Assembly (NCBI GenBank): GCA_903857685.1
Contig: CAIOFO010000015.1
Coordinates: 1 to 40,543 of the forward strand
Source of the DNA: an uncultured Alphaproteobacteria bacterium
GTDB taxonomy: Bacteria; Pseudomonadota; Alphaproteobacteria; Micropepsales; Micropepsaceae
DNA length: 40,543 nucleotides
Direction: 5' to 3'
How positions within the stretch are numbered: the stretch's first letter is position 1; the number at the start of each line of letters is the position of its first letter. The position numbers were made by a program, and so were the translations under genes. The notes below the pieces were generated by a model. That model ran no database searches, was not told where the DNA came from, and saw only the letters and a program-made list of their open reading frames with translations. Positions 6,546 through 37,626 of the stretch are shown here, one piece after another.

Positions 6546-7229
6546 TCAGTTCGCGATTGCCGCGATGGCGGTAAGCGGGACTTCCATGTTTCCGATGACG
6601 AGTTGCGGCGTGCCGGTGGTCATGTCGATCTGGGTGACCGTGCCGGCGCTGGCGACCGAGGTGGTGATGGGCGAGCCATCCGCCGCCGTGGCGGTGACCG
6701 CCAGTTTGTAGGTGCCGTCCGCCAGGCTGTTGCCGTTATTGTCCTGGCCGTTCCAGCTGAAACTGTTGCTGCCCGCCGCCGTCTGGCCGGCGCCGGTATA
6801 GACGACCTTGCCATTGGCATCGGTGACGGTGACCTGCGTGGCCGCGGCGGCGGCGCCCAAAGTGTAGCTCCAATTGGCCTTGCCGCCCGTCAGCGACCCA
6901 TCGCCATTGGTGACGGAAACATTCTTGCCCAGATAGGTGGTGGCATTGATGCCGGCCTGGCTGGTGCCCTGGGAGATCAGGGTCTTGAGATTGGTGTTGG
7001 TGTTGATCTGCTGCTCGACCTGGCTGAACTGCACCAGCTGCTGCGTGAACTGGTTGGAATCCATCGGCGCGGTGGGATCCTGGTTCTTGAGCTGGGTGGT
7101 GAGCAGGGTCAGGAAGGTGCTGAAATTGCCCGACAGCTGGGCCATTGCATCCGGCGCGCTGGTGCTGGCCGCCGCCGTCTGGGCGGTGGTGGTCACGGGC
7201 GCGGTGGTCGCAGGCGTTGTGCTGGTCAT
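6546..7229 (-). CDS. flgD: FlgD, hook assembly (capping) protein
   Basis: Scaffold that caps the growing hook so that FlgE can polymerise. The 227-residue product has a Thr/Ala-rich N-terminus, then the conserved block FLTLLTTQLKNQDPTAPMD with SNQFTQQLVQFSQVEQQ (about residues 39-75). The C-terminal part holds the FlgD Ig-like region, including GSNSFSWNGQDNNGNSLADG and the end PLTAIAAIAN. It lies 12 bases after fliK and upstream of flgE, the normal hook operon arrangement. Confidence 0.94.
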   Translation of the reverse strand: MTSTTPATTAPVTTTAQTAAASTSAPDAMAQLSGNFSTFLTLLTTQLKNQDPTAPMDSNQFTQQLVQFSQVEQQINTNTNLKTLISQGTSQAGINATTYLGKNVSVTNGDGSLTGGKANWSYTLGAAAAATQVTVTDANGKVVYTGAGQTAAGSNSFSWNGQDNNGNSLADGTYKLAVTATAADGSPITTSVASAGTVTQIDMTTGTPQLVIGNMEVPLTAIAAIAN

Positions 7230-7241
7230 GGGATTTGATCC

Positions 7242-8696
7242 TTAAACGTGAATATCGAGGCGGCCGTCGGCAACGCCGCCGGTGAAGGAGATTGCCGTTG
7301 CCGCGCCCTGCACCGCGTCGATCGCGCGGCTGGCGGTGAGATTGGCGCGCGTGCCGCGGTCAGAACCGGTGTCGCCGCTCTGCCCGTTCTGGCTGCGCAA
7401 CGAGAAATTCAGGCCGCTGTTCGAAACGTCCAGGCCGGCATCGCGCAGCGCCTGGGTCAGGCTGCTGGAGTCTTTCTGCAGCAAATTCAGGGTTTCGGGC
7501 TGGTCGGCGGTCATGTGCGCCTCGGTCTTGCCGCTGGCGTCAATCGAAAGGCGGACCTCGACCCGGCCAAGTTCCGGCGGGTCCAGGCGGATATCGAACT
7601 GGCGGGCGCCGCTTTGCGTTCTGGCGGCGATGGCCACGGCCAATGTGTTCACGGTGGCGGCGGTGTCGGCGCCATGGGCGGAAATCTGGACGGTATTGGA
7701 CAGGGAAGCGGCGGGGCTGTTCTGCACCGGAGCGCCGAAATTCAGGGCGGGAACGGCAGCCGGGTTTACTGTGGAGGCTGGCTGTGTCTGCGGTGCGGGC
7801 TGGGCCTGAGGCGCATGGACTTGCGGCTGCGGCGCGGCATCGGCCGTTTGCGCCGCGACTTTTCCGCTTCCGTCCGGACCGGACGCTGATTTGCTGTCGC
7901 TGACCGCACCCTTTATGGCGGCCTGAGCTGCCGCGGTCGGGTTTTTTGCGCCGGATGGCACGCCGGGAAGCTGCGATGCGGCGCCGTTGGCGGCATCTTG
8001 CCCGGCGGCGTTCGGCGTGACGGAGCCCGCCAGCGGTGTCGCGGCGGCGGCGTCCGCCGATGCTTTTCCGGAATCGGCGCCGACCGCGCCGACATTGGCG
8101 CCGGTATTGGCACTGGTTGCGTCATTGGCGGCTGCCGCGATCTGCGGGCCGGGCGGTGTGGCGCCGGCCTGGGCCTGCGCCAGCGCCAGGGCGTTCGGAT
8201 CGGGCAGCGGCGACGGCGGGGGGACTTGCGGCTGCTGGGCCGGCTGCTGCTGGTCGGGCTGCTGCTGCGCCTGGGCGGTCTGGTCCGCGCCATTATTGTC
8301 GTTGGCGGCGGCACTATCCTTGGCGAGCGCCTTGCCATCGGCGGCTTTTGAGTCCGTGGCTTTGGTGTCAGCGGTTTTGGCGTCTGTGTTCTTGCTGCCG
8401 GATGTCTTGGCTGCCCCGGCCGGGGCGGCGCCGTGATGGTCCTTGGGCGCGGCGGACGCATCGTTGCCGGCGTCATCGGATTTCTTGACTGCCTCATGAT
8501 GGTCTTCGTCGGAAACCGGCTTGGCGGCTTGCGGTTTTGCCTGCAATGCGGCGGTTGCGGCCAGCATCACGCCGAAAGGCGAGCGATCGGCCGCATTCTT
8601 GTCGTCCACGGCATTCGATTTGCCCGGCAACTTGCCCGCATTGTTCGAAGCCGCGATCGCACTGGTCGAGAGAGATGCCAAAACAAAAACTCGCAT
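7242..8696 (-). CDS. fliK: FliK, flagellar hook-length control protein
   Basis: Secreted molecular ruler that ends hook growth and switches export specificity. The 484-residue product is low-complexity over roughly 1-330 (Ala, Pro, Gln, Asp-rich). Its conserved C-terminal domain has FDIRLDPPELGRVEVRLSID and AHMTADQPETLNLLQKDSSS, then LTQALRDAGLDVSNSGLNFS. The ATG at 8696 has AGAGG nine bases upstream. However, the sigma-54 promoter at 8715-8729 would put the transcript start near 8703, leaving too short a leader for that site. Initiation at the in-frame TTG at 8681 (MASLSTSAIAAS) is a real alternative. First gene of fliK-flgD-flgE. Confidence 0.9.
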   Translation of the reverse strand: MRVFVLASLSTSAIAASNNAGKLPGKSNAVDDKNAADRSPFGVMLAATAALQAKPQAAKPVSDEDHHEAVKKSDDAGNDASAAPKDHHGAAPAGAAKTSGSKNTDAKTADTKATDSKAADGKALAKDSAAANDNNGADQTAQAQQQPDQQQPAQQPQVPPPSPLPDPNALALAQAQAGATPPGPQIAAAANDATSANTGANVGAVGADSGKASADAAAATPLAGSVTPNAAGQDAANGAASQLPGVPSGAKNPTAAAQAAIKGAVSDSKSASGPDGSGKVAAQTADAAPQPQVHAPQAQPAPQTQPASTVNPAAVPALNFGAPVQNSPAASLSNTVQISAHGADTAATVNTLAVAIAARTQSGARQFDIRLDPPELGRVEVRLSIDASGKTEAHMTADQPETLNLLQKDSSSLTQALRDAGLDVSNSGLNFSLRSQNGQSGDTGSDRGTRANLTASRAIDAVQGAATAISFTGGVADGRLDIHV

Positions 8697-12101: not shown

Positions 12102-13220
12102 ATGAACGCGCCCGGCAAAACACGCATCGTCGTCGCCATGTCCGGCGGCGTGGATTCCTCCGTCACCGCCGCGCTTCTCAAGCGCCAGGGCCATGACGTG
12201 GTGGGCGTGACGCTGCAGCTTTATCCCGGCGATGTGGCGAAGAAAAAAGGCGCCTGCTGCGCCGGCCAGGATATCTATGACGCCAAGCGCGTCGCGGAAG
12301 CGCTCGGCATTCCCCATTACGTCCTGGATTATGAGAGCCGCTTCCGCAAGAACGTGATCCAGGACTTCGCCGATTCCTATGCCCGCGGCGAAACCCCGAT
12401 CCCCTGTATCCGCTGCAATGAAAAAGTGAAATTCGCCGACCTGATGCAGACGGCCCGCGAGCTGGGCGCTGCGGCGCTGGCCACCGGCCATTATGTCCGC
12501 CGCGTGGAAGGCCCGCGGGGCGCCGAACTGCATGCCGCCGCCGATGCCGCGCGCGACCAGAGCTATTTTCTTTTCTCCACCACGCAAAACCAGCTTGATT
12601 ATCTGCGCTTTCCGCTTGGCGACATGGAAAAGCCCGCCGTGCGCGCCATCGCCGCCGAGCTCGGCCTGGTCAACGCCGCCAAGCCCGACAGCCAGGACAT
12701 CTGCTTTGTGCCGGAAGGCCGTTACAGCGACATTGTGAAAAAGCTGCGCCCCGATGCCACCCGCCCCGGCGAGATCGTGGACCAGGCCGGCCGGATAGTC
12801 GGCCGGCATGACGGCATCATCCATTTCACCATCGGCCAGCGCAAAGGCCTGGGCCTGTCCGGCAACGAAGAGCCGCTTTTTGTCCTCAGCCTCGATGCCG
12901 CCCGGGCGCGGGTGGTGGTGGGACCGCGCGGCGCCCTCGCCGCTTCGGCGATCACGCTCAAGGATGTAAATTGGCTGGCCTCCCTTGATGAGGCGATGGG
13001 CGCCGACCAGCCTTTCGAATGCACGGTGAAGGTCCGCTCCATGCGCCCGCCGGTGGCCGCCAGGGTGACGCCGCTGTCCGCCGGCGCGGCGCGGGTGAAA
13101 TTGCTGGGGCCTGAGGATTCCGTGGCGCCCGGCCAGGCCTGCGTCTTTTACCAGGACCAGCGGGTGCTGGGCGGCGGCTGGATCGCGCGCGCCGACCCGG
13201 CGGAAATGGCCGCGGAATAG
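12102..13220 (+). CDS. mnmA: MnmA, tRNA-specific 2-thiouridylase
   Basis: Cytoplasmic ATP-dependent enzyme that puts sulfur on U34 of tRNA Lys, Glu and Gln. The 372-residue product begins [20 protein letters not shown], with the PP-loop SGGVDSS at 14-20. The catalytic cysteines are C102 ([11 protein letters not shown]) and C201 ([11 protein letters not shown]), and ATGHYVRR lies near 127. The C-terminal beta-barrel includes [13 protein letters not shown] and ends [15 protein letters not shown]. The ATG at 12102 is preferred; an in-frame TTG 12 codons upstream adds residues absent from the family. A weak ribosome site precedes it. The gene lies 45 bases after flgL but is not related to it. Confidence 0.97.
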
Positions 13221-13309
13221 ACGGACTCCCTGCCAAACTTGACAGGCAAGCCGCCCGAACCCTACATCCCCCGCCTGTTTATCGACTTTTTTTGGCCGGA
13301 AGGGCCTTT

Positions 13310-13384
13310 GGCACCGTAGCTCAGTGGTAGAGCAGGGGAATCATAATCCCTTGGTCGGCGGTTCAAATCCGTCCGGTGCTACCA
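13310..13384 (+). tRNA. tRNA with CAT anticodon, probably elongator tRNA-Met
   Basis: The 75-base gene folds as a full cloverleaf. The acceptor arms are GGCACCG and CGGTGCT (first pair G-T), the D arm is GCTC/GAGC, the anticodon arm is GGGGA-ATCATAA-TCCCT, and the T arm is GGCGG-TTCAAAT-CCGTC. An encoded CCA ends at 13384. The first pair and D-stem differ from initiator tRNA-fMet. The variable loop TGGTC resembles that of lysidine-modified tRNA-Ile2 (CAT), so the isotype is not certain; a tilS-dependent Ile2 role is the alternative. Confidence 0.95.
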
Positions 13385-13418
13385 TTTCAAATCGCCCATC
13401 GGGTGGGCGATTTGAAAT
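13384..13418. terminator. Perfect 15-bp hairpin immediately after the tRNA
   Basis: Arms ATTTCAAATCGCCCA and TGGGCGATTTGAAAT are perfectly complementary around the loop TCGGG. The first arm starts on the last base of the tRNA CCA. There is no T-run after it, so it may act as a processing or termination hairpin for the tRNA transcript rather than a standard Rho-independent terminator. Confidence 0.6.
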
Positions 13419-13513
13419 GACAAGCGGCCCCGCGCGCCAGCGCGGCCACCACGCTGTCGCTAAGCCGCTCGGGGCCGCGCGTCAGCGCAGAAGAGAAGTG
13501 CTATGCAATACTC
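13419..13513 (+). other. ilvA leader with alternative stems and a four-codon reading frame
   Basis: AGCGGC at 13423-13428 can pair with GCCGCT at 13464-13469. The overlapping GCGGCCCC (13424-13431) can pair with GGGGCCGC (13471-13478), so the two folds exclude one another. At 13503-13517 a mini-frame ATG CAA TAC TCA TGA has GAGAAG close upstream. Its stop overlaps the ilvA ATG (ATGA), so it would couple translation. No run of Ile, Val, Leu or Thr codons is present, so this is not a classical attenuator peptide. Confidence 0.35.
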
Positions 13514-14725
13514 ATGAGCACTCTTCCCGTCACCCTCGCCGATATTCGCGCCGCCGCCGCGGCGATTGACGGCGCCGTGGTCCGCACCCCCACCCGCCAT
13601 TCCCGCACCCTGTCCGGCATTGCCGGCTGCGAAATCTGGCTCAAGTTTGAAAACCGCCAGTTCACTGCCTCCTTCAAGGAACGCGGCGCGCTGAATTTCC
13701 TCCTGTCGTTGGATGATGCCGCCCGGGCGCGCGGCGTCGCGGCAATGAGCGCGGGCAATCACGCGCAAGGCGTCGCCTATCACGCCGGGCGCCTGGGCAT
13801 TCCCGCCGTCATCGTGATGCCGCTGTCCACGCCTTTCAACAAGGTCAAGCATACCCGCGATTTCGGCGCCGAAGTCATTCTGGAAGGCCAGGATCTGGCC
13901 GCAGCCAACGCAGTGGCGCGCGCCATCGCCGCGCAGCGCAATCTCACTTTCATCCATCCTTACGACGACACCAAGGTGATCGCGGGCCAGGGCACCATCG
14001 CGCTCGAGATGCTGGCCGACGCGCCGCAGCTCGATACGCTGGTGGTGCCGGTCGGTGGCGGCGGCCTGATTTCGGGCGTCGCCATCGCCGCCCGGGCCCT
14101 CAAGCCCGCCATCGAAATCTTCGGCGTCCAGACCGATCTCTATCCGGCCATGGCCGACGCGCTGCACGGTGTCCCGCTGCCGGCGACGCCGCCGGCCCAG
14201 ACCATCGCGGAAGGCATCGCCGTCAAGCAGCCCGGCATTCTCACCACGGCCATCGCCAGGGCGCTGGTGAAGGACATCCTGCTGGTGAGCGAGCCGGCCA
14301 TTGAACATGCCCTGGCGATGATCCTGGAAATCGAAAAGACCGTGATCGAAGGGGCGGCAGCGGCGGGCTTTGCCGCCGTGCTGGCCAATCCCGGCCTCTT
14401 CAAGGGCCGCAAGGCCGGCATCATCATGTCGGGCGGTAATATCGACATGCGCCTGCTCTCCAACGTGATCCTGCGCGAGCTGACGCGCGAAGGCCGCATC
14501 ATGACTTTGGAAGTGGCGATTGCCGACCGCCCCGGCGCCCTGGCCCAGGTTGCGGCGCTGGTGGGCGAGGCCGGCGGCAACATCCTGGAAGTTTCCCACA
14601 ACCGCATGATGATGGGCATTTCCGCCAAATCGGCCACGCTGGCGCTGGTGATCGAGGCGCGCGATGCCGAACATGGCGCGGAAATCCGCGCCCGGCTCAT
14701 CGAAGGCGGTTTTCCGCTGGTTTAA
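13514..14725 (+). CDS. ilvA: Threonine ammonia-lyase (dehydratase) with C-terminal ACT domain
   Basis: PLP enzyme that turns threonine into 2-oxobutanoate and ammonia, the first step toward isoleucine. The 403-residue product has the PLP lysine in TASFKERGALN (K55), SAGNHAQGVAYHA near 77-89 and the phosphate-binding glycine loop VPVGGGGLISG near 177-187. A C-terminal ACT domain occupies about 325-403 (VAIADRPGALAQVAALVGEA, then GGNILEVSHNRMMMG). One short ACT domain at this length fits the TdcB/IlvA form of many alphaproteobacteria, which may be biosynthetic or catabolic. No other ilv gene is adjacent. The start overlaps the stop of a four-codon frame. Confidence 0.93.
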   Translation: MSTLPVTLADIRAAAAAIDGAVVRTPTRHSRTLSGIAGCEIWLKFENRQFTASFKERGALNFLLSLDDAARARGVAAMSAGNHAQGVAYHAGRLGIPAVIVMPLSTPFNKVKHTRDFGAEVILEGQDLAAANAVARAIAAQRNLTFIHPYDDTKVIAGQGTIALEMLADAPQLDTLVVPVGGGGLISGVAIAARALKPAIEIFGVQTDLYPAMADALHGVPLPATPPAQTIAEGIAVKQPGILTTAIARALVKDILLVSEPAIEHALAMILEIEKTVIEGAAAAGFAAVLANPGLFKGRKAGIIMSGGNIDMRLLSNVILRELTREGRIMTLEVAIADRPGALAQVAALVGEAGGNILEVSHNRMMMGISAKSATLALVIEARDAEHGAEIRARLIEGGFPLV

Positions 14726-14753
14726 CGGCCGGTGGATATTAACCCTGAAAATA

Positions 14754-14806
14754 TTGTCCCAGTTACTCGCCCCCACCGCTGTCCTAATTTGGGACAAATG
14801 GGTGGG
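14754..14806 (+). promoter_or_regulatory. Interleaved inverted repeats around the start of the small membrane protein
   Basis: TTGTCCCA (14754-14761) pairs with TGGGACAA (14790-14797), and CCCACC (14772-14777) pairs with GGTGGG (14801-14806). The order A-B-A'-B' is that of a pseudoknot or of two exclusive hairpins. The in-frame ATG at 14798 lies between A' and B'. TGTCC at 14779 offers a third partner for A'. Chance cannot be excluded in sequence this GC-rich. Confidence 0.3.
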
Positions 14807-14815
14807 TCTCTGGAA

Positions 14816-14983
14816 ATGCCGAAAAGCGTTGCGCAACTGACGGGGATTCTGGTCACCGCCATCGTCACCTTTGGCACCGACCTGGACCTGACCTACGCCA
14901 TGCTGCTGGGCGTCGGCGCCGGAGCGCTGGCGACCTTCTTTGTTTCGCTGTCGGAAGCCAAGCGGGCGATGATGGAGGAGTGA
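14816..14983 (+). CDS. Small membrane protein of unknown function
   Basis: I do not recognise the family. From the ATG at 14816 the product has 55 residues and begins MPKSVAQLTGILVTAIVTFG. Hydrophobic stretches lie near residues 6-18 and 24-44 (YAMLLGVGAGALATFFVSLS), followed by a charged end (EAKRAMMEE). Longer versions start at the ATG at 14798 (61 residues) or the GTG at 14732 (83 residues). I prefer the short form because the extra N-terminus looks non-coding and carries inverted repeats. It sits 90 bases after ilvA, in the same direction, and faces motA across a hairpin array. Confidence 0.45.
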   Translation: MPKSVAQLTGILVTAIVTFGTDLDLTYAMLLGVGAGALATFFVSLSEAKRAMMEE

Positions 14984-15265
14984 GGAGTGGTGCGGCGTAG
15001 CCGCACGAGCATTTCCTGTGGGTCCGTAACGCCAGCGTACGGACGCGAGAGCGACGAATGGTCCATAGCGCCAGCGTATGGACGCGCAAGCGGAGGGCAG
15101 GGAGCGGCGCGTTGCGCGCCAGCCCGACTATCATTCCTGCGGAAGCGGAAAGCCAATTAGCGAAAAAGAAGACCGCTTGTATTTACCCCCGGCGCCTCGC
15201 CCAAGCTCGGCGCGAGCTTCACTCGAAACGGTCCACCGGACCGTTTCGTCAGCTACGCTGACCGT
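14984..15265. repeat. Array of seven short hairpins in the gap facing motA
   Basis: The convergent gap between the small membrane protein and motA holds perfect or near-perfect hairpins. They are 14990-15006 (GTGCGGC/GCCGCAC), 15022-15044 (GTCCGTA/TACGGAC), 15061-15083 (GTCCATA/TATGGAC), 15106-15120 (GGCGCG/CGCGCC), 15203-15219 (AAGCTCG/CGAGCTT), 15224-15248 (CGAAACGGTCC/GGACCGTTTCG) and 15248-15262 (GTCAGC/GCTGAC). The second and third are 39 bases apart and form a tandem unit with similar spacers. The 12-mer CGCCCAAGCTCG at 15198-15209 recurs at 18202-18213 in the other array. No gene is seen here. The last two hairpins could terminate motA transcription. Confidence 0.75.
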
Positions 15266-16138
15266 TCAGCCCCCATCCGGCGGGATGGATCCCAGTGACG
15301 CTTCCAATTCCTGGAAGGTCGGCTGATATTCGGATGGCACGCTGCCGCGGCCGATCTCGACCGAAACCTGCGCCGCATTGCCGTGCAGATGCGCCACCAG
15401 GATGTCGCGGATGACGTGATAGAAAAGCGCGTCCTCGTCCACCACGGCTTTCAGCCGCACGCCCATCGGTCCGACCACGCCATAGGCCAGGAACACGCCC
15501 AGGAAGGTTCCCACCAACGCCGAGCCGATCATGCCGCCCAGCACTTCCGGCGGTTCGCTGATCGCGCCCATGGTCTTGATGACGCCCAGCACGGCGGCGA
15601 CGATGCCCAGCGCCGGCAATCCGTCGGCCATCGAGCTCAGCGCATTGGCGCCGACCAGGGCTTCGTGGTGATGTTTTTCCAGCTGCTTGTCCATCGCCTG
15701 CTCGACCTGGTGCGGGTCTTCCAGGCTCATGGTCATCATCCGCAGCGTGTCGCAGATGAAATCCAGCGCGAAATGATCCTTGGTGATGCGCGGATAGCGC
15801 TTGAAGATCGAGGAATCCTCGGGCTTTTCGATATGCGCTTCCAGCGCGATCAGGCCCTTGGATTTCATGGTCTTGGTCAGGAGGAACAACAGGCAGAGCA
15901 GGTCGCGGTAATCGCCGGGCTTCCAGGCTGGGCCGGAAATCACCTTGCCCAGCGAACCCCCGATCTTTTTGAGGTTGTAAACCGACCCGGCGATCAGCAT
16001 TGCCGCCAGCGCGGCGCCGAAGATGGTCAGCATCTCGTGCGGCAGGGCTTCGAACACGACGGCCAGCGAGCCGCCGGTCATCATGTAGCCGCCGAAAACG
16101 CAGGCGAAGAGAACGACAAGACCGCCGATTTGAAGCAT
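15266..16138 (-). CDS. motA: MotA, flagellar motor stator protein
   Basis: Inner-membrane stator subunit that with MotB conducts ions and drives FliG. The 290-residue product from MLQIGGLVVLFACVFGG has four membrane segments. Two are N-terminal and separated by a short loop; two follow a large cytoplasmic domain. The family signatures GLPALGIVAAVLGVIKTMG and PEVLGGMIGSALVGTFLGVF each carry the conserved proline that couples ion flow to FliG. The start at 16138 is chosen because MotA proteins begin with this first membrane segment; an in-frame ATG 20 codons upstream has no ribosome site. No motB is present in the window. It follows a response regulator and an Hpt protein in the same orientation. 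Confidence 0.95.
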   Translation of the reverse strand: MLQIGGLVVLFACVFGGYMMTGGSLAVVFEALPHEMLTIFGAALAAMLIAGSVYNLKKIGGSLGKVISGPAWKPGDYRDLLCLLFLLTKTMKSKGLIALEAHIEKPEDSSIFKRYPRITKDHFALDFICDTLRMMTMSLEDPHQVEQAMDKQLEKHHHEALVGANALSSMADGLPALGIVAAVLGVIKTMGAISEPPEVLGGMIGSALVGTFLGVFLAYGVVGPMGVRLKAVVDEDALFYHVIRDILVAHLHGNAAQVSVEIGRGSVPSEYQPTFQELEASLGSIPPDGG

Positions 16139-16268
16139 GAAGTGAAACGCCCCGATAATTCCTGAAACGGCATTTCGCGATGGAAATCCCGAGAGCATTC
16201 ATTATTAACGTCAGGGCTTAAGGACGCGTGAATTCCGCTGTGGCGCGGCGGCGCGGAATGTTAACGCT

Positions 16269-16763
16269 TTATGAGTTTTTGGCGGCCTTGCGGCTCTCCG
16301 CCAGCTTGCGGCCGGCCAGTTGGGCCAGCTCCCTGGCCACCATGTCGTTCATCTGGCTCAGCGCGTCGGTGTCGCGGGCGGTGCGGGTGATGGCGCTGAC
16401 ATGCAGGGCGACCACGGCGGCATCCGGCCGCACGCCGGACTGCTCGGCTTCGTCGAAATAGCGGCACAGCCCGTCGGCGATGCGGCCGGTCGAAAGCATG
16501 CCGGCGGTTTCGGCAAAGCCCCGGATTTCATGGGCCTTGTCCGACAGGATCGCGAAATCCATGCCGGCCTCTTCCAGCTCGCCGACATAGCCGCGGACCG
16601 CATCGCGCAGCATTTCACCATTGTCCTCGATCACCCGCGTGGCGGTGACGGCGGTGACATTGCTGCGCAGGGTGCGCGCCATGACCGCGGCATGGGCCTT
16701 GCTGACCATCTGGGGATAGGCGTCCGGCGGGATCATCTGCGCTTTGATATTCGGTTTGGACAT
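16269..16763 (-). CDS. Histidine phosphotransfer (Hpt)-like protein
   Basis: The 164-residue all-helical product carries AHEIRGFAETAGM at about residues 77-89, which matches the Hpt active-site pattern H-x-(I/L)-(K/R)-G and makes H78 the candidate phosphorylated histidine. The preceding helix ends GMDFAILSDK and the following one includes GRIADGLCRYFDEAEQSG, consistent with the Hpt four-helix bundle. The C-terminus is basic. Its ATG lies eight bases after the response regulator stop, with AGGA overlapping that stop, so the two are co-translated. It probably passes phosphate to or from the adjacent CheY-like protein. The exact family is not known to me. Confidence 0.7.
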   Translation of the reverse strand: MSKPNIKAQMIPPDAYPQMVSKAHAAVMARTLRSNVTAVTATRVIEDNGEMLRDAVRGYVGELEEAGMDFAILSDKAHEIRGFAETAGMLSTGRIADGLCRYFDEAEQSGVRPDAAVVALHVSAITRTARDTDALSQMNDMVARELAQLAGRKLAESRKAAKNS

Positions 16764-16771
16764 GTTCGATC

Positions 16772-17284
16772 CTATTGCACCTGGAGGTCCTGGAAATCGT
16801 CATGGCGCCGCCAGGGGCCGGCATAGCTATCAATGGTTCGGCGCCGCCGGTCGGGACCGAAATAGGATTCGCAGCGCACAAAGGCGCGCGGCCGCTCGAC
16901 GATCTCGGCGATGCGGGAAAACAGGCTGTGGGCGGTAATCGGCTTGACCAGGAATTCGGTGACGCCGGCATCGCGCGCCGCCTCTACCTGGTGCTTTTCG
17001 GTGTGGCCGGTGATCATGATGATCGGGACAAAGGGGTTGGGGCTGTTGCCGGCGGTGCGCACGGTGCGGCTGAATTCCAGGCCGTCCATCGGCTTCATCG
17101 CTAGGTCGCTGAGCACCAGGTCGCATTTTTTTTCGCGCAGCACCGTCAGCGCGGTGCCGCCGTTATTGGCTTCGGAGATTTCGCGGATGCCGGCGGAATT
17201 CAGCAGTGCGCGCAGCAGCGAGCGCATATGCTGATTGTCCTCGACAATCAGGATCTTCAGATGCTCCAGCGCCGACCCAGACAT
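16772..17284 (-). CDS. CheY-like response regulator with arginine-rich C-terminal tail
   Basis: The 170-residue product has a complete receiver domain. It contains the acidic pair in ILIVEDNQH, a phosphorylatable aspartate in DLVLSDLAM (about D59), a threonine in IIMITGH and a lysine in FLVKPI. There is no DNA-binding domain. Residues from about 135 read FVRCESYFGPDRRRRTIDS, followed by a tail with another RR pair. This F-V-R-x-x-x-Y-F-G-P-D-R-R-R tail recurs in alphaproteobacterial regulators. Arginine-rich CheY-like proteins of Caulobacter (Cle) bind cyclic di-GMP and act on the flagellar motor; a similar role here is inference, supported by hpt and motA downstream. The start has GAGGG only three bases upstream, a short spacing. 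Confidence 0.88.
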   Translation of the reverse strand: MSGSALEHLKILIVEDNQHMRSLLRALLNSAGIREISEANNGGTALTVLREKKCDLVLSDLAMKPMDGLEFSRTVRTAGNSPNPFVPIIMITGHTEKHQVEAARDAGVTEFLVKPITAHSLFSRIAEIVERPRAFVRCESYFGPDRRRRTIDSYAGPWRRHDDFQDLQVQ

Positions 17285-17389
17285 ACGCCCTCAACACACT
17301 GCGCCGGTGGCCCCGGCCCACGAAATTTTCTGGTCGCGCGAACGCACGCGCAAATCATAAAATTGCTACCTGAGGTTACATACGGTTGG

Positions 17390-17404
17390 TTAGCATTCGG
17401 TTAC
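17390..17404. promoter_or_regulatory. Weak CtrA-like box upstream of the response regulator-hpt-motA operon
   Basis: TTAG-N7-TTAC on the plus strand reads GTAACC-N5-CTAACC toward the operon, an imperfect CtrA-type direct repeat with an 11-base period (6 of 8 core bases). It overlaps the inverted repeat GCATTCGG/CCGAATGC (17393-17400 and 17426-17433), which itself spans the FlbD-like element. Confidence 0.3.
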
Positions 17405-17414
17405 AAATGGCCAT

Positions 17415-17428
17415 GGCAAACATTGCCG
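17415..17428. promoter_or_regulatory. Candidate FlbD operator upstream of the motA operon
   Basis: GGCAAACATTGCCG is identical to the element in the fliF promoter region (4625-4638). It lies about 131-144 bases upstream of the response regulator start and about 60 bases upstream of the divergent acetyltransferase. No sigma-54 promoter was found in this gap, so if it binds FlbD the effect could be repression, as proposed for fliF. Confidence 0.45.
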
Positions 17429-17489
17429 AATGCGGTGAAAGCCCGCCAAACGCCTTGTTTTTGGCCGCCGGTCCCGCTACGGCCAGCCC

Positions 17490-18044
17490 ATGAATGACGC
17501 GCACCCCGCCCAAAGCTGGCAGGTCCGGCCCGAAGGCCCGGACGATGCCGCCGGCGTGGAAGCCCTGAACCGCTCCGCCTTCGGTCCCGGCCGTTTCGCC
17601 AAATCGGCCTATCGCCTGCGCGAAGGCGTGGCGCCGGCGCCCGGCCTTTCCTTTGTCGCGATGGAAGATGGCGTGCTGCGCGGTTCGGTGCGGTTCTGGC
17701 CGATCCGCGTCGGCGGTCACGAAGCACTGCTGCTCGGCCCGCTGGCGGTGGAAATGGCGCAGCGCAACCGCGGCCTGGGCATCGCCCTGATGCAGGCGGG
17801 AATCGAGGCGGCGCACCAGGGGCCCTGGGGCGCCATCCTATTGGTCGGCGACGAGCCCTATTACGCCAGGGTGGGATTTTCGCGCCTGCCGCCGGGGCGG
17901 GTGAAGTTTCCCGGGCCGGTGGACCAGAACCGCATTCTGGGCCTGTCGCTGAAAGCGGGCGGGCTACTCAATCTGTCGGGGCAGATAAGGCGCGCGCATA
18001 TTGATGATGCTGTATGTGCCGACGGAGCCGGACTCGGTTCATAG
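17490..18044 (+). CDS. GNAT-family N-acetyltransferase
   Basis: Acyl-CoA-dependent acetyltransferase of unknown substrate, resembling the YhbS group. The 184-residue product has the GNAT core. Strand 4 and motif A appear as LLLGPLAVEMAQRNRGLGIA around residues 77-96, where QRNRGLG fits the acetyl-CoA pyrophosphate loop Q/R-x-x-G-x-G/A. Motif B follows with AILLVGDEPYYARVGFSRL. The N-terminus (VRPEGPDDAAGVEALNRSAF) is typical of the family. It is divergent from the motility operon and converges on the vWA gene across the second hairpin array. Confidence 0.85.
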   Translation: MNDAHPAQSWQVRPEGPDDAAGVEALNRSAFGPGRFAKSAYRLREGVAPAPGLSFVAMEDGVLRGSVRFWPIRVGGHEALLLGPLAVEMAQRNRGLGIALMQAGIEAAHQGPWGAILLVGDEPYYARVGFSRLPPGRVKFPGPVDQNRILGLSLKAGGLLNLSGQIRRAHIDDAVCADGAGLGS

Positions 18045-18314
18045 GTCCTCATCCTGAGCCTGTCGAAGGATGAAGGCGTCTCCGCTCGCTTCACCGCGTC
18101 CGGCCGCTCGCCTAGCTTTTCTTAACGAGCGATAGCGCGTTTAGAAAAACTGGCCCCATGGCCTAGCGACAGCGTAGTGGCCATGAGCGAAGCGAGTGAG
18201 GCGCCCAAGCTCGCGGCGCGCTGGCGGTCCGGCCCCTCGCTTGTGCTCGGGGCGCGCTATGGCTCTCGCATGTCCGTCAGGACATGCTCGCGCACCACTT
18301 TGCGGTGCGCCGCC
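18045..18314. repeat. Second hairpin array, with a REP-like element, in a convergent gap
   Basis: No gene is seen. 18049-18074 is a TCATCCTGAGCCTGTCGA plus AGGATGA element, a palindromic repeat that is common in alphaproteobacterial intergenic DNA. It is followed by hairpins at 18117-18148 (TTTTCTTAACG/CGTTTAGAAAA, one mismatch, loop AGCGATAGCG), 18157-18185 (CATGGCC/GGCCATG, inner TAGCGACAGCGTA), 18268-18287 (GCATGTCC/GGACATGC) and 18290-18310 (GCGCACC/GGTGCGC). The 12-mer at 18202-18213 is shared with the array at 14984-15265. The last hairpin sits four bases from the stop of the vWA gene and may terminate it. Confidence 0.72.
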
Positions 18315-20378
18315 TTAGCGCCCCTCCATCCTCCAGGCAAGGAGCAGCGATCCCACGATCAGCAGAAGCGCTGCCCAGGCCGGCAGCAAAGGCTGCTGCG
18401 TCAGCGACGTGACGCGATAGGCGCCGTTGCGGCGCAGCCCGATCCAGTCCGAACCGCTGGCGCTTTGTCCCGGCACCACGCGCCGCACTCCCGGAATGCC
18501 GTCGGCCAGCCAATGCACGCCGCCGCCATGGGCCTGCGCATCCGGCTTTAATATCTCCTCGGTGGCGCGCATATCGGCCACTTCCTTCGGGTTCAGCGGC
18601 CCCGCCGCCGTGACGGTGGAAAGCGTGCCGTCGCTGATGCGGTAGAGGCCCAGCTCGCTCACCTTGGTCGCGGCGCGCCAGATGCCGGGACCGGCTTTCT
18701 CCATTGTCAGCGTCATGGTCTTGCCCGACGGCATGGTCAGCGTCACCGGCGCCGCGCTCTGCGCCATGCTGCGGCGGGTGACAACGATTTCGCCCTCCGT
18801 CACCGTGGCCGACAGGCTTTCGGCTTCCAGTTCCGGCTCCTTCATCAGCCAATGCGCCAGGCGGCGCAGCAATTCCGCCTGCGGCCCGCCGCCTTCAAAA
18901 CCGCGCGCCCACAGCCAGGCCTGGTCGGAGAGCAATTCCGCCACCCGGCCTTTCTTGACATTGTCCAGCACCAGCAGCGGCTTGCCGCCCGGTCCGCTCA
19001 TCACCGTCTGTCCCGACACCGGCACCGCGCCGATCAGGCGGAACCAGCGGCCCCAGCTGGCCGCAACATTGTCGCCATTGCTTTGCGGCAGGTCGCGCGT
19101 CACCGGATGGGCCTGGCCCAGGGTGGTGACCTGCGGCTTGAAGCCTTGCGTCACGATCTCGCCGGTCGGCTGGGCGGGCAGAACTCCCGCCAGCGGCGTG
19201 CGATAGGTGCTGGTGGGACCGGCAAATTCCGGACCCGACGACAGCAGCAGCGCGCCGCCCTGCTCGACATATTGGGCGATATTCTCGAAATAGATCATCG
19301 GCAGGATGCCCTGCTCGCCATAGCGGTCGAAGATCACCAGGTCGAAGCTGCTCAGCTTGTCGCTGAACAATTCGCGGGTGGGAAAGGCGATCAGCGACAA
19401 TTCGTCGATCGGGGTGCCGTCCTGCTTCTCGGGCGGCCGCAATATCGTGAAATGCACCAGATCCACCGACGGATCGGCCTTGAGCAGGTTGCGCCACACC
19501 CGCTCGCCGGCATGCGGCTGGCCGGAAATCAGCAGCACCCGCAGGCGGTCGCGCACGCCCGACACCGTCACCACGGCGCGGTTGTTCTGCAGCGTCAATT
19601 CCGCCGGGCCGGCGGCGGCGGCCAGCTCGACGATATTCTCGCCTTCATGCGTCACCGGCACGGCGATGCTGGTGTCCTTGCCGATGGGGATGGAGCGGCT
19701 GCCCAGCGCATGCCCGTCCACCGACAGGCTGACATCGGCGACGGCACCGCTTTCATCGCCGCCGAAATCATCCACCCGCACCACCATCTGCGCCGCCTGG
19801 CCGACAATGGCGAAGCGCGCGGCATTGACGATGCTGAGCTTGCGGTCGCGCTCGCCGCGCTGTCCCGCGATCACCACATGCAGCGGCGCCTTCAGGCCCA
19901 TCTGCTCCGGCGGCGGCGCGTCATGCACCTCGCCATCGGTGATCAGGATGGCCCCGGCAATGCGCGCCGGCGGCACATCGGCCAGCGCCGCATTCAGCGC
20001 CGCGAAAGCCTCCGTGCCGTTATTCTCGCCGCTGGTGGTGGTGGTGATCTCCGCCTGGCGGACAATGAGGTCGGGCTGGCCCGCAAGCTCTTTGCGAATT
20101 TGCGCCAGCGCCTTTTCCGACTGGGGCAGGCGGTCGCCGATGCCCATGCTCTGGGACCGGTCCATCACCACCGCCACCACATCGGGCAGCGGCACATGGT
20201 TTTCATGCACCAGCATCGGCCCCGCCAGCGCGAAGAGCAGGATGGCGAAGGCCAGGCCGCGCGCCCAGGCGCCCCGCGCGCCGGCATAAAGGGCATAGGC
20301 CGTCAGTCCCAGCGCGGCCAGCGCCAGGATGGCGATCAGCACCAGCGGCACATGCGGATCGAAGGCCAATCTTGTCAT
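18315..20378 (-). CDS. vWA-domain membrane protein of the MoxR/DUF4159 cluster
   Basis: Function not established. The 687-residue product has two N-terminal membrane segments (about 12-35 and 42-60), then a von Willebrand A domain. That domain has an intact metal site, DRSQS in VVAVVMDRSQSMGIG near residue 73, and ITDGEVHD later. A glutamine-amidotransferase-like region follows (about 270-460, including LRVLLISGQPHAGERVWRN and YVEQGGALLLSSGPEFAGP), and one C-terminal membrane segment ends LLLAWRMEGR. The start MTRLAFDP at 20378 lies 13 bases after the previous stop; an in-frame ATG 17 codons upstream would overlap that gene and add non-conserved residues. Last gene of MoxR-DUF58-DUF4159-vWA. 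Confidence 0.8.
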   Translation of the reverse strand: MTRLAFDPHVPLVLIAILALAALGLTAYALYAGARGAWARGLAFAILLFALAGPMLVHENHVPLPDVVAVVMDRSQSMGIGDRLPQSEKALAQIRKELAGQPDLIVRQAEITTTTSGENNGTEAFAALNAALADVPPARIAGAILITDGEVHDAPPPEQMGLKAPLHVVIAGQRGERDRKLSIVNAARFAIVGQAAQMVVRVDDFGGDESGAVADVSLSVDGHALGSRSIPIGKDTSIAVPVTHEGENIVELAAAAGPAELTLQNNRAVVTVSGVRDRLRVLLISGQPHAGERVWRNLLKADPSVDLVHFTILRPPEKQDGTPIDELSLIAFPTRELFSDKLSSFDLVIFDRYGEQGILPMIYFENIAQYVEQGGALLLSSGPEFAGPTSTYRTPLAGVLPAQPTGEIVTQGFKPQVTTLGQAHPVTRDLPQSNGDNVAASWGRWFRLIGAVPVSGQTVMSGPGGKPLLVLDNVKKGRVAELLSDQAWLWARGFEGGGPQAELLRRLAHWLMKEPELEAESLSATVTEGEIVVTRRSMAQSAAPVTLTMPSGKTMTLTMEKAGPGIWRAATKVSELGLYRISDGTLSTVTAAGPLNPKEVADMRATEEILKPDAQAHGGGVHWLADGIPGVRRVVPGQSASGSDWIGLRRNGAYRVTSLTQQPLLPAWAALLLIVGSLLLAWRMEGR

Positions 20379-20391
20379 GACGTATGCCGGG

Positions 20392-23118
20392 TCATCTGTG
20401 GCCCAGCCTCTCCAGCAGCGCCGGGGCATGCACCTGGTCGGTCTTGTAATTGCCGGTCAGGGCATACATCACCAGGTTGATGCCGAAGCGCAGCGCCATT
20501 TCGCGCTGGGCATCGCCGCCCGGCACCGGCTCGGTCAGCGGCCTGCCATCGCCGTCCACCGCCCAGGCGGCGGCCCAGTCATTGCCGCCGATCAGCACCG
20601 GCGAAACGCCGTCGCCGCCCCGCGCCGGACCGTTCTCGCCATTCTTGGTTTCGGGCGGCAGCGCCTCGATCCACAATTGCCCGCCGTCCCAGCGGCCGGG
20701 AAAGTCGCGCAGGATATAAAAGGATTTTGTCAGCACATGATCGGCGGGCACCGGCTCCAGCCGCGGCATGTCCAGCCCGGCGGTGAGGCGGCGCAGGGTC
20801 TGCTGGCCCGGATTGCTGTCGCCGCGCACCGCCCCCAGCGTGAGGTCGCGCGTGTCGAACAGGATGGTGCCGCCCAGCCGCATATAGTCGGCGATTTTCG
20901 ACAGCGCCGCCGGGGTGAGATTTTTCTCGCGCGGGTCCATCGGCCAATAGAGCAGCGGATAGAAGGAAAGATCGTCGCGCGCCAGGTCCACGCCCACCGG
21001 GTCCACCGGCTCGTAGGAGGTGCGCTGGCGCAGGGCATAGCCCAGGCCGGTCAGCCCCGCCTTGCTCATCGCATCCACATCGGGCAGGCCGGTCACGACA
21101 TAGGCCAGCCGCGTGTCCAGCGCCGCCTGCATGTTCATCGCCTCGTCGGCATGAACCGGCCGCGCCAGCAGCAGCAGCAACAGCGCCGCGCCGGCCGGAC
21201 GCAGGTTGGAAATATAGCCGCGCAGCCACAGCGCGATGAAGGCGTCCAGGCACAGCAGCGCCGCGCCCAGCGCCAGCAGCCAGGGCTCCAGCGCCAAGGT
21301 ATGGACTTCGCCGTAATTGAACTGGCCGGACAAGGTCAGCGGCAGCAGCGTGTCATGCGCGGTCAGCGTGTTCAGCGCATTCTCCACCCCCTTGGCGCCG
21401 TAAAGGCCGGGCGGGTGCCTGGCCGAGACTTCGGTGCGGGCGAAATCCTTGGCCGGGATGGGAAGCAGTTCGGCGGGCGCGGGAATGGTGCGGCCCATGC
21501 CGTCCAGCACGCTTTCCGGCGCCAGGCTGGAAAGCTGCGCCAGTTCGGCCGCCGGCGTACCGGCCGACAGCGCCAATATGCGCTTGAGCATGTCCACATA
21601 AAGTCCCGACAGCGGCAGCGACGACCAGGCCGGGCTGGCAGTGACATGGAACAGCACGATCCAGCCCTGGCCTTGCTGCCGGGCCGTCACCAGCGGCGTG
21701 CCGTCGGCCAGCCGCGCCCAGCTGCGATCCGACAGGGCGGCGCTGGGTTCGGCGAGAATTTGCTGCGACACCGTCACTTCATCGGGCGCGACCAGGCCGT
21801 TGAACGGACTGGCGGCGGGAAAGGGCGCCAGCTTCTGCGGCCTGTCCCAGGACATGGCGCTGCCCAGGAAGCGCCCGCCCACCCGCAGCGGCACCGGCAC
21901 AAGCGCATCTGCGCCGCCGGTCATGCGCGGCCCCGCGAAGCGCACCAGCACGCCGCCGTTTGAGACGAATTTGTTCACCGCGTCGGCGTCACTGCCGCCG
22001 ATCTTTCCGATATCGGCCAGCAGCAGCACCGAGACATGGCGCGCGATCAGCTCGGAAATTGTGCCGGTCTGCGCTTCGGCAAACGGCGCCAGCGCCCGCT
22101 GCAGGTAATAGACGTCGGACAGAAGCGGCTGCTCATTCTCGGCGGTCGCAGCCGAGACGATGCCCGCCTTGCGTTCCACCCCGCCCGAATCCAGCAGCTG
22201 CACCGCCCCGGCGCTGTCCTCGCCGCGGATTTCCAGCCGCGCCGTCTGGTTGCGGATCTCCAGCGGCATCGCAACATGGCCCTGGCCGCGCGTCTCGCCG
22301 GGTTTGAAGATCAGCGCCGCGTCGCCCAGGGTTTCGCCATTGCGGCCGATGGCGGCGGCGATGGCTTCGCGCGCGCCGCCGACCGCCGCCCGCACCGCCG
22401 TCAGTTGAAAGCCGGTGCCGTCGCGCACCGGCGGCAGCAGGCCCAGCGCGCTGATCTGCGGCGCGAAAATCCGCACGCTGCCGATGCGCGCCAGGGCAGC
22501 CTGGAATTTTGCGCCGCTGCCGTCATCAATGCCGTCGCTCAGCCAGAAAATCTGCGGCGGCGCCGAAAAATGCGTCCGCGCCAGGCTGGCCGCCGCCGCC
22601 ATGCGGTCGCCGGGCCAGGACATGGGCTGCAGTTCCCGCACCTGCCGCGCGGCGGCGCCGGCATCCAGCAGCGTGACGGGCGCGTCGGTCGCGATCGGCA
22701 CGATGGCCACCGGCCTTGTCCCCGCGCCGCGCAGCAGGTCGGCGATCACGTTCTGGCGATCTTCCCAGCCCTTGGCCGCGGTCCAGCCATTGTCGATCAC
22801 CAGCACCAGCGGACCGTCGCCCGCCACTTGCGGCGCGCGGCCCAGCAGCGGATCGGACAATGCCGTGATCAGCAGCGCCGCCGCCAGCAGCCGCAGCAGC
22901 AGCAGCCACCAGGGCGTATGCGCGGGCGTCTGTTCCTCGTTGCGCAATCCCAGTAGCAGGCGCAGCGGCGGAAAGGCGATCCGGCGCGGTTGCGGCGGTG
23001 TGACTTTCAGCAGCCACCACAACACCGGCAGCACGGCCAGGCCGGCCGCGACCCAGGGCGCGCCGAAACTCAATTGTGAGAAAAGCGAAAGCAAGTCAGG
23101 CCATGCCGATCGCGGCAT
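20392..23118 (-). CDS. BatA/DUF4159 double-domain membrane protein
   Basis: The 908-residue product has a BatA-type N-terminus with two membrane segments (about 18-38 and 62-82, with VLWWLLKVTPPQPRRIAFPP). Next comes a vWA-like region whose metal motif is degenerate (VIDNGWTAAKG instead of DxSxS). Near residues 620-680 there are two more hydrophobic stretches, the second ending LLLLARPVHA like a signal peptide. The DUF4159 domain (about 680-905) has LSFYPLLYWPMDPREKNLTP and YMRLGGTILFDTRD. The ATG overlaps the DUF58 gene by 23 bases. Many relatives start at the equivalent of the TTG at 23094 (LLSLFSQLSFGAPW), so the start is open. Confidence 0.85.
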   Translation of the reverse strand: MPRSAWPDLLSLFSQLSFGAPWVAAGLAVLPVLWWLLKVTPPQPRRIAFPPLRLLLGLRNEEQTPAHTPWWLLLLRLLAAALLITALSDPLLGRAPQVAGDGPLVLVIDNGWTAAKGWEDRQNVIADLLRGAGTRPVAIVPIATDAPVTLLDAGAAARQVRELQPMSWPGDRMAAAASLARTHFSAPPQIFWLSDGIDDGSGAKFQAALARIGSVRIFAPQISALGLLPPVRDGTGFQLTAVRAAVGGAREAIAAAIGRNGETLGDAALIFKPGETRGQGHVAMPLEIRNQTARLEIRGEDSAGAVQLLDSGGVERKAGIVSAATAENEQPLLSDVYYLQRALAPFAEAQTGTISELIARHVSVLLLADIGKIGGSDADAVNKFVSNGGVLVRFAGPRMTGGADALVPVPLRVGGRFLGSAMSWDRPQKLAPFPAASPFNGLVAPDEVTVSQQILAEPSAALSDRSWARLADGTPLVTARQQGQGWIVLFHVTASPAWSSLPLSGLYVDMLKRILALSAGTPAAELAQLSSLAPESVLDGMGRTIPAPAELLPIPAKDFARTEVSARHPPGLYGAKGVENALNTLTAHDTLLPLTLSGQFNYGEVHTLALEPWLLALGAALLCLDAFIALWLRGYISNLRPAGAALLLLLLARPVHADEAMNMQAALDTRLAYVVTGLPDVDAMSKAGLTGLGYALRQRTSYEPVDPVGVDLARDDLSFYPLLYWPMDPREKNLTPAALSKIADYMRLGGTILFDTRDLTLGAVRGDSNPGQQTLRRLTAGLDMPRLEPVPADHVLTKSFYILRDFPGRWDGGQLWIEALPPETKNGENGPARGGDGVSPVLIGGNDWAAAWAVDGDGRPLTEPVPGGDAQREMALRFGINLVMYALTGNYKTDQVHAPALLERLGHR

Positions 23119-27576: not shown

Positions 27577-28421
27577 CTTTTGTCCTGCTGGAGTCCCTGT
27601 CGTTGCCCGGCGATCCCGCCAAAACCAACGAAGACGCTTACGCGCATGCGGACAACGCCGCGCTGGTGCTGGACGGCGCCACGCCGCTAGGCGATCCCTT
27701 GATGCCGGGCCCCAGCGACGCCGCCTGGCTGGCCCAGTTCGGCGCCCGCCGCCTGATGGCGCATCTGAAGGACGGCGATGCGCCGCGTGATGCATTGGCC
27801 CACACGCTGGCCGATGCCGCCAAGAGCTTCGAGGCCCTGCGCCGTCATCCGGTCCGCGAGAAATGGCAGACGCCCTGTGCCTCCATGATGCTGGCGACGC
27901 AGGCGCAGGCGGAGGGGGAAATTGAATTTATGTGGTACGGCGACTGCACGGCGCTGCTTCAACAGGGTGATGAAAGCGCCATCATCGGCGACGCTTTTGA
28001 ACGGCGGGGCCTCGAAGCCTACAGCGCCCGCCGCATGGCCCAGGAAAAAAATCTCGCGCCCGCGCCCGATCTCAATCGCGCCGCGATGATGCAAACCATG
28101 CGGGCCTCGCGCAATCGCATCAACAGCGGCAAGAACTGGCTGTTCAGTCCCGAACCGCGCGCCGCTGCGCATGTCTCCAGCCTGCGCGCTGCGGTTGCTC
28201 CTGGCGCCGTGCTGCTGATCGCCTCGGACGGTTTTCTCGCCCTGGCCACCGATTACGGCGCCTATGATGAAATGAGCCTGGTCACAGCGGCGCGGGTAAA
28301 AGGCCTTGCCGCCCTGGGCGCCGAACTGCGCGCCATCGAGAATGCCGACGCCATGGGCGAGAAATTCGCCCGCTTCAAGAAGTCGGACGATGCTACCGCG
28401 CTGCTGTTGGAAGTTAAGTGA
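27573..28421 (+). CDS. PP2C-like serine/threonine phosphatase domain protein
   Basis: The 282-residue product carries the metal-binding positions of the PPM/PP2C family: KTNEDAY (N19, E20, D21), LVLDGAT (D34, G35), IASDGFLAL (D219) and a final KSDDATALLL. The segment CASMMLATQ with WYGDCTALLQ matches the core strands. It is a single domain without membrane segments, so presumably cytoplasmic. The substrate is unknown. It closes the DUF1285-NUDIX-cca operon with an ATGA overlap and converges on the TerC-like gene, overlapping it by eight bases (28414-28421). Confidence 0.82.
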   Translation: MTFVLLESLSLPGDPAKTNEDAYAHADNAALVLDGATPLGDPLMPGPSDAAWLAQFGARRLMAHLKDGDAPRDALAHTLADAAKSFEALRRHPVREKWQTPCASMMLATQAQAEGEIEFMWYGDCTALLQQGDESAIIGDAFERRGLEAYSARRMAQEKNLAPAPDLNRAAMMQTMRASRNRINSGKNWLFSPEPRAAAHVSSLRAAVAPGAVLLIASDGFLALATDYGAYDEMSLVTAARVKGLAALGAELRAIENADAMGEKFARFKKSDDATALLLEVK

Positions 28422-37588: not shown

Positions 37589-37626
37589 ACAGAATTCTCA
37601 TTCTGATCAGCGGCGGGCAATGAATG

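Follow-up and report, generated by a model that had tools for sequence, protein, structure and literature searches.

The closest described relatives of the elements analyzed here are the repetitive extragenic palindromic (REP) sequences of bacteria. CGTC-tagged REPs of Alphaproteobacteria are 20–40 bp long, mostly intergenic and located mainly in convergent or codirectional gaps near gene 3' ends, and are described without an associated transposase gene (PMC3733652). Untagged REP-like families are listed for Bordetella, Brucella, M. tuberculosis, Deinococcus and Cyanobacteria in the same paper. We examined two arrays of hairpins in a contig of 40,543 nucleotides (the window) from an uncultured alphaproteobacterium of the family Micropepsaceae. 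Array 1 (14984–15265) and array 2 (18045–18314) each fill a gap between convergent genes. Each is probably a mosaic organized like a bacterial interspersed mosaic element (BIME), whose modules are extragenic palindromes, REP-like but untagged, that come and go at the 3' ends of genes.

Array 1 was similar to 15 other places in the source genome (G000, 2.995 Mb in 160 contigs, the window being contig C15) and array 2 to ten, and the same few modules recurred in the gaps at these places, combined differently from gap to gap. M1 is a perfect, long palindrome surrounding GGTCCACCGGACC; M2, an imperfect hairpin, spans 50 nt; and M4 has a constant loop region with arms that are free in sequence yet match each other. 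M3 is a linker which bears a 12-mer shared by the two arrays and recurs beside other modules; smaller G+C-rich hairpins lie in between. Covariance models R1, R2 and R3 were made for M1, M2 and M4 from seed alignments A1, A2 and A4, respectively. The seeds were hand-picked from intergenic motif hits, with coding motif hits lacking pairing arms excluded, and the models are thus based on intergenic copies. As only the best 121–150 candidates per genome were scored in genome searches, counts may be low: R1, R2 and R3 had at least 54, 21 and 54 matches in G000, where M1 and M2, being palindromes, can be counted once for each strand. In a 605,863-base sample of this genome that included the window (562 genes by our own gene caller; 280 gaps of 40 bases or more), 17, 11 and 18 matches represented 12, 7 and 18 places. 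M1 occurred together with M2 at 5 of the 23 module-bearing gaps of the sample and with M4 at 5, and this mixture of palindromes with other short motifs is the organization of a BIME. Of 31 genomes of the genus, at least 20, 13 and 26 had matches to the three models (E ≤0.05). Across 60 genomes sampled from the order, M4 was found in at least 38 of 47 genomes of the same genus (G000 counted) and, as a weak match, in one of the 13 belonging to other genera. The modules are dispersed, and nearly confined to one genus. Motif counts in relatives known as metagenome-assembled genomes (MAGs) were too sparse and were not used.

These modules share with CGTC-tagged REPs the palindrome size, the location, the division into families that differ in their stems and the apparent lack of an associated transposase gene (PMC3733652), but M1 and M4 have no abutting CGTC, their stems start differently, and several families are mosaicked in one gap. 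As in the BIMEs and REPs of Escherichia coli (PMC3116915) and the REPINs (hairpin-forming REP doublets) of Pseudomonas (PMC8266576), palindromes form mosaic arrays, and compensatory hairpin changes have been described for REPINs as well (PMC3116915, PMC8266576). Unlike these elements, the modules have no GTAG tag and no REP-associated tyrosine transposase (RAYT) gene in G000, and they combine several dissimilar families in place of the inverted doublets of a single REP. By description, they also resemble the untagged REP-like families, which are palindromic repeats without conserved terminal motifs (PMC3733652), but differ from these in being nearly limited to one alphaproteobacterial genus. 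M1, M2 and M4 were not found in the literature, which was searched by title and the beginning of the abstract, and their core words retrieved just an unrelated paper on rice. As far as these searches show, the modules represent new families within a known repeat class.

All 37 places of M1, M2 and M4 in the G000 sample were intergenic, with 12 in convergent, 20 in codirectional and 5 in divergent gaps, whereas gaps of at least 40 bases provided 4.5, 34.4 and 25.2 kb of these three types. Similarly, 28 of 28 M1 and M4 places were intergenic in a 798-kb sample (loci L238–L277) of the nearest relative, G032, and were divided 10/15/3 among 13.4, 54.1 and 25.2 kb of convergent, codirectional and divergent gaps. 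Per base, modules were densest between convergent genes in both samples, and in G000 they occupied 6 of 28 convergent gaps versus 17 of 252 others (Fisher p 0.018). Short palindromes in multiple copies, extragenic and biased toward 3' ends, are REP-like in the broad sense, as an initial annotation of the window had suggested, and the reported distribution of REPs is similar (PMC3733652). Selection against disruption may account for this bias in location.

The same annotation made its proposal depend on an excess of hairpins in convergent gaps elsewhere, and such an excess was present. Within the G000 sample, convergent gaps of 40 bases or more contained 21 hairpins with stems of at least 7 bp versus 4.1 expected, and 13 versus ∼3.7 (by subtraction) when both window gaps were removed. 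Per kb, these hairpins numbered 4.69, 1.89 and 1.27 in convergent, codirectional and divergent gaps (0.91, 0.77 and 0.67 expected, respectively), with coding DNA at the expected level. The order was the same in G032 (5.75, 2.12 and 1.11 per kb versus 0.71–0.75 expected, 0.75 for convergent gaps). Array 1 had the highest hairpin count (5) among the 280 gaps of the G000 sample; array 2, with 3, was joint fourth with four others and was shorter than most gaps having 3 or 4. GNA and GNNA loops are unusually stable, and GNNA loops exceeded shuffled sequences in intergenic hairpins (7 versus 0.9 in G000 and 29 versus 0.1 in G032). However, repeat copies inflate these counts and GNA loops in G000 numbered just 2 versus 0.9, and the stable-loop idea was not relied on.

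Orthologous junctions are occupied in some genomes and tight in others, which supports the initial suggestion of DNA that comes and goes. Among 25 judgeable loci of the genus, the motA junction that holds array 1 was convergent with a gap of at most 30 bases in 12, had a hairpin-containing gap of 44–305 bases in 5 (G000 included) and a different neighbor in 6; the gaps of the other 2 were longer and probably conceal an uncalled open reading frame (ORF). At the array-2 junction, 14 of 30 loci were convergent and tight, 7 (G000 included) were convergent with 79–616 bases, 6 had a different neighbor and 3 had no called neighbor. G000 and G032 shared 121 orthologous neighbor pairs, including 16 convergent ones. 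At 9 of these 16 junctions, the G032 gap was 42–161 bases long and contained hairpins; at 8 of the 9 (array 2 aside), G000 had −29 to 34 bases, and it had more than 30 bases at 2 of the 16. Array 2 was partly common to G032 (122 bases), in which M2, M4 and a hairpin with TCATCCT arms were missing. We infer that insertion rather than deletion produced both arrays. At a G032 junction (L270) orthologous to that of locus L004, the insert holds GTCATTCCCGCG..CGGGCAT palindromes, which we take to resemble the dRS3/CGTC-1 repeat, an indication that junctions of this kind are used by unrelated repeat families. Elsewhere, a 93-base segment of M1 plus linker (1488–1581 of locus L006) lay between codirectional genes whose G032 counterparts overlap by 4 bases. 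The median convergent gap was 60 bases in G032, which has the smaller genome, and 9 in G000, so that repeat load differs between related species.

Variation among copies showed how the stems change. For M1, matches to R1 were drawn from at most 88 sources, and removal of 16 second-strand matches, 1 duplicate place and 1 of odd length from 61 left 43 copies. These copies are related, and their 473 pair cells are not independent events; 448 cells were Watson-Crick, 2 were G-T and 23 were neither (18 of them from a single shorter-stem subfamily, columns 6–7), and there were 80 double changes. The 30 copies outside model building had 313 Watson-Crick, 2 G-T and 15 other cells, with 52 double changes. 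The M4 set (43 rows, 41 distinct) had 258 pair cells, comprising 240 Watson-Crick, 6 G-T (all at two loop-proximal positions) and 12 others, of which 9 represent a built-in mismatch of one form. None of 500 shuffles reached the covariation score of M1, and the same was true for the 43 copies of M4. In five well-aligned orthologous hairpins of G000 and G032, two of them outside the modules, 40 pairs were the same, 4 were compensated, and none was G-T or broken. The remaining G000 hairpins in shared gaps were missing from G032 or lay in poorly aligned gaps, where G-T and broken cells did appear (for example, 2 and 3 in L135), and one non-module hairpin at L003 had one pair broken. Pairing is preserved by double changes.

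The nearly exclusive Watson-Crick exchange in M1 points to maintenance of pairing at the level of DNA. RNA selection alone fits poorly because more G-U pairs would be expected. Template switching can alter both arms in a single event (PMC8794818), and the stems are better explained by such paired-arm copying or by selection that keeps the DNA palindrome perfect, although the data do not separate the two. Speculatively, and with considerable doubt on our part, the palindromes may be self-perfecting: through template switching at the replication fork, each palindrome would have one arm rewritten on the pattern of the other, which would change the arms pairwise in one step and leave loops and cores constant. 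Maintenance, and perhaps array growth, would then proceed without a dedicated transposase, and untagged REP families would be self-correcting DNA.

Could the hairpins instead be RNA elements, that is, bidirectional terminators or 3'-end stabilizers of both convergent transcripts that are under selection for RNA folding? Their 3'-end bias, their strong folds and the pairing that G000 and G032 have both kept at a shared junction would agree with this, and we consider it possible, though clearly not the favored explanation. However, T runs follow none of the stems in the two gaps, all 6 terminator-like sites in 14700–18600 lie outside the gaps, and many orthologous junctions are free of hairpins; G-T pairs, which RNA should tolerate as G-U, are also scarce in M1 and restricted to loop-proximal positions in M4. 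Intrinsic terminators were rejected on the lack of T runs, consistent with the earlier view that this is not a simple terminator pair. A known RNA family was likewise rejected, as only a tRNA at 13310–13381 passed the Rfam gathering score in 13200–18600 (Yfr1 was sub-threshold, E 0.27). A binding platform for gyrase, integration host factor (IHF) or another nucleoid factor, placed where convergent transcription accumulates positive supercoils, appears unlikely; a platform of the gyrase or nucleoid type had been among the initial suggestions. E. coli BIMEs bind gyrase, IHF and DNA polymerase I, and the convergent location and the long perfect dyad of M1 with its conserved core would suit such a role, but convergent orthologous junctions are often array-free and modules also occur in codirectional and divergent gaps. 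That G+C-rich spacers of this size hold such hairpins by chance is hardly conceivable: although 58 of 1000 shuffles reached the array-2 count of stems of at least 6 bp, the counts of stems of at least 7 bp, the z-scores of the folds, covariation and membership in repeat families argue otherwise, and the dispersed copies refute it.

A classical REP or BIME, once moved by a RAYT (TnpA-REP) transposase since lost from G000, would share with the modules its size, its palindromic form and its place between genes. PF01797 detected RAYT-like genes in 8 of the 21 genomes searched, including 5 of 12 relatives in the same genus, but G000 had no PF01797 match. Among the scored candidates there was no M1 or M4 in G003 (six PF01797 matches) or G004 (five); in G008, one match coexisted with at least 65 M1 hits, so that coexistence is possible. 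Modules were not seen flanking the five RAYT-like loci of relatives with a called gene (3 of the 8 loci had none), and the genes at L021, L022, L025 and L026 of the same genus were flanked by GGGTCAGAGT/TGACCCC-type or AAGTATA-type ends rather than hairpin modules. Tags were sought at 44 M1 places (the duplicate kept), 43 M4 places and 10 M2 copies. The GTAG or CGTC tag of most catalogued REP families abutted the stem at none of the M1 or M4 places, reverse-strand CGTC overlapped the stem at 19 of the 43 M4 places, and neither tag was near the stem foot in 9 of 10 M2 copies, GTAG being nearby in one. A RAYT, which the initial annotation proposed to look for, was rejected as the driver in G000, and such an origin seems improbable.

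Several points weigh against untagged REP-like mosaics as the explanation. No mobilizing enzyme was identified, and the usual tags are absent. Neither a target-site duplication nor an exact insertion boundary was readable at the arrays, because the flanks are too diverged, and the polarity of gain and loss is read from the many tight relatives, not from a dated phylogeny. By its count of perfect stems, array 2 on its own exceeds chance only modestly, and the hairpins may have a selected function in RNA, such as 3'-end protection or termination. We nevertheless favor REP-like modules. Short palindromes of several families would be copied into many intergenic sites, and the copies that persist would be those just past gene 3' ends. 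Convergent junctions would be most tolerant because they have no promoter or ribosome-binding site, and arrays would probably grow and shrink one module at a time. CGTC-tagged REPs are also reported without a transposase, so that the question of the enzyme is general, and the REP literature leaves open how untagged and CGTC-type families spread without one (PMC3733652). With filled and empty junctions at orthologous positions, multi-family mosaics and stems that change almost only in pairs, this genus would allow direct counts of gain, loss and paired-arm change.

Array 1 fills the whole 282-base gap between a small ORF and motA, and the seven hairpins initially noted there were all located as perfect inverted repeats with stems of 6–11 bp and loops of 3–9 nt. 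They comprise a small hairpin, GTGCGGC-GTA-GCCGCAC (14990–15006); the repeats at 15022–15044 and 15061–15083, within M4 modules at 15018–15048 (arms GTCCGTA/TACGGAC around the conserved loop region, R3 34.8 bits) and 15057–15087 (GTCCATA/TATGGAC, 37.4 bits), both on the + strand; GGCGCG-TTG-CGCGCC (15106–15120); AAGCTCG-GCG-CGAGCTT (15203–15219), which overlaps the linker; 15224–15248, the 11-bp perfect stem around GGTCCACCGGACC of an M1 module (15220–15252, + strand, R1 48.8 bits, alignment A1); and GTCAGC-TAC-GCTGAC (15248–15262), which adjoins the M1 stem and overlaps it by one base. The 12-mer CGCCCAAGCTCG, part of M3, lies at 15198–15209 on the + strand and was also present in other module-bearing gaps. 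Six non-overlapping hairpins had stems of at least 6 bp and five of at least 7 bp, numbers reached by 1 and 0 of 1000 dinucleotide shuffles, respectively; the DNA fold z-score was −3.32, and none of 200 shuffles was equally low.

Array 2 fills the 270 bases between a GNAT gene and the gene at 18315–20429. The 'at least five' hairpins claimed for it correspond to three perfect hairpins (18049–18073, 18268–18287 and 18290–18310), a 7-bp inverted repeat (18157–18185) and an imperfect pair of 17-nt arms (18114–18151). Three perfect stems were reached by 58 of 1000 shuffles at a length of at least 6 bp and by 1 of 1000 at 7 bp or more; the DNA fold z-score was −3.61 (0 of 200 shuffles equally low). 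TCATCCT-GAGCCTGTCGA-AGGATGA (18049–18073) is the hairpin missing from the orthologous G032 gap. It is followed on the + strand by M2 (18109–18158, an imperfect long hairpin of ∼50 nt, R2 65.9 bits, alignment A2), an offset-stem form of M4 (18155–18185, R3 30.4 bits) and the second copy of CGCCCAAGCTCG in its M3 linker (18202–18213), the 12-mer being common to both arrays as initially observed. A 4-bp stem, CCCC/GGGG (18233–18252), is CCGC/GCGG in G032, a compensated change by eye. All 8 pairs of GCATGTCC-GTCA-GGACATGC (18268–18287) are the same in G032, as are 6 pairs of GCGCACC..GGTGCGC (18290–18310), with 1 compensated.

The left neighbor of array 1 is a 61-aa ORF (14798–14983, + strand), which is preceded by a PALP enzyme gene (13514–14725); the right neighbor is motA (15266–16198, − strand), whose product was 78–91% identical to those of its 36 best-matching MAG loci (L028–L063). 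Array 2 is flanked by the GNAT acetyltransferase gene (17490–18044, + strand) and a gene for a 704-aa protein without a Pfam match (18315–20429, − strand). The other convincing convergent junctions in the window are, as first described, an 8-base overlap (28414–28421) and a 38-base gap (37589–37626), and a weak called ORF (7117–7245) overlaps its neighbor as well. The tRNA gene at 13310–13381 (Rfam, 68.4 bits) lies just upstream of the PALP gene, and a weaker M4 copy (13441–13471, − strand, R3 28.0 bits) was found between the two, outside both arrays.

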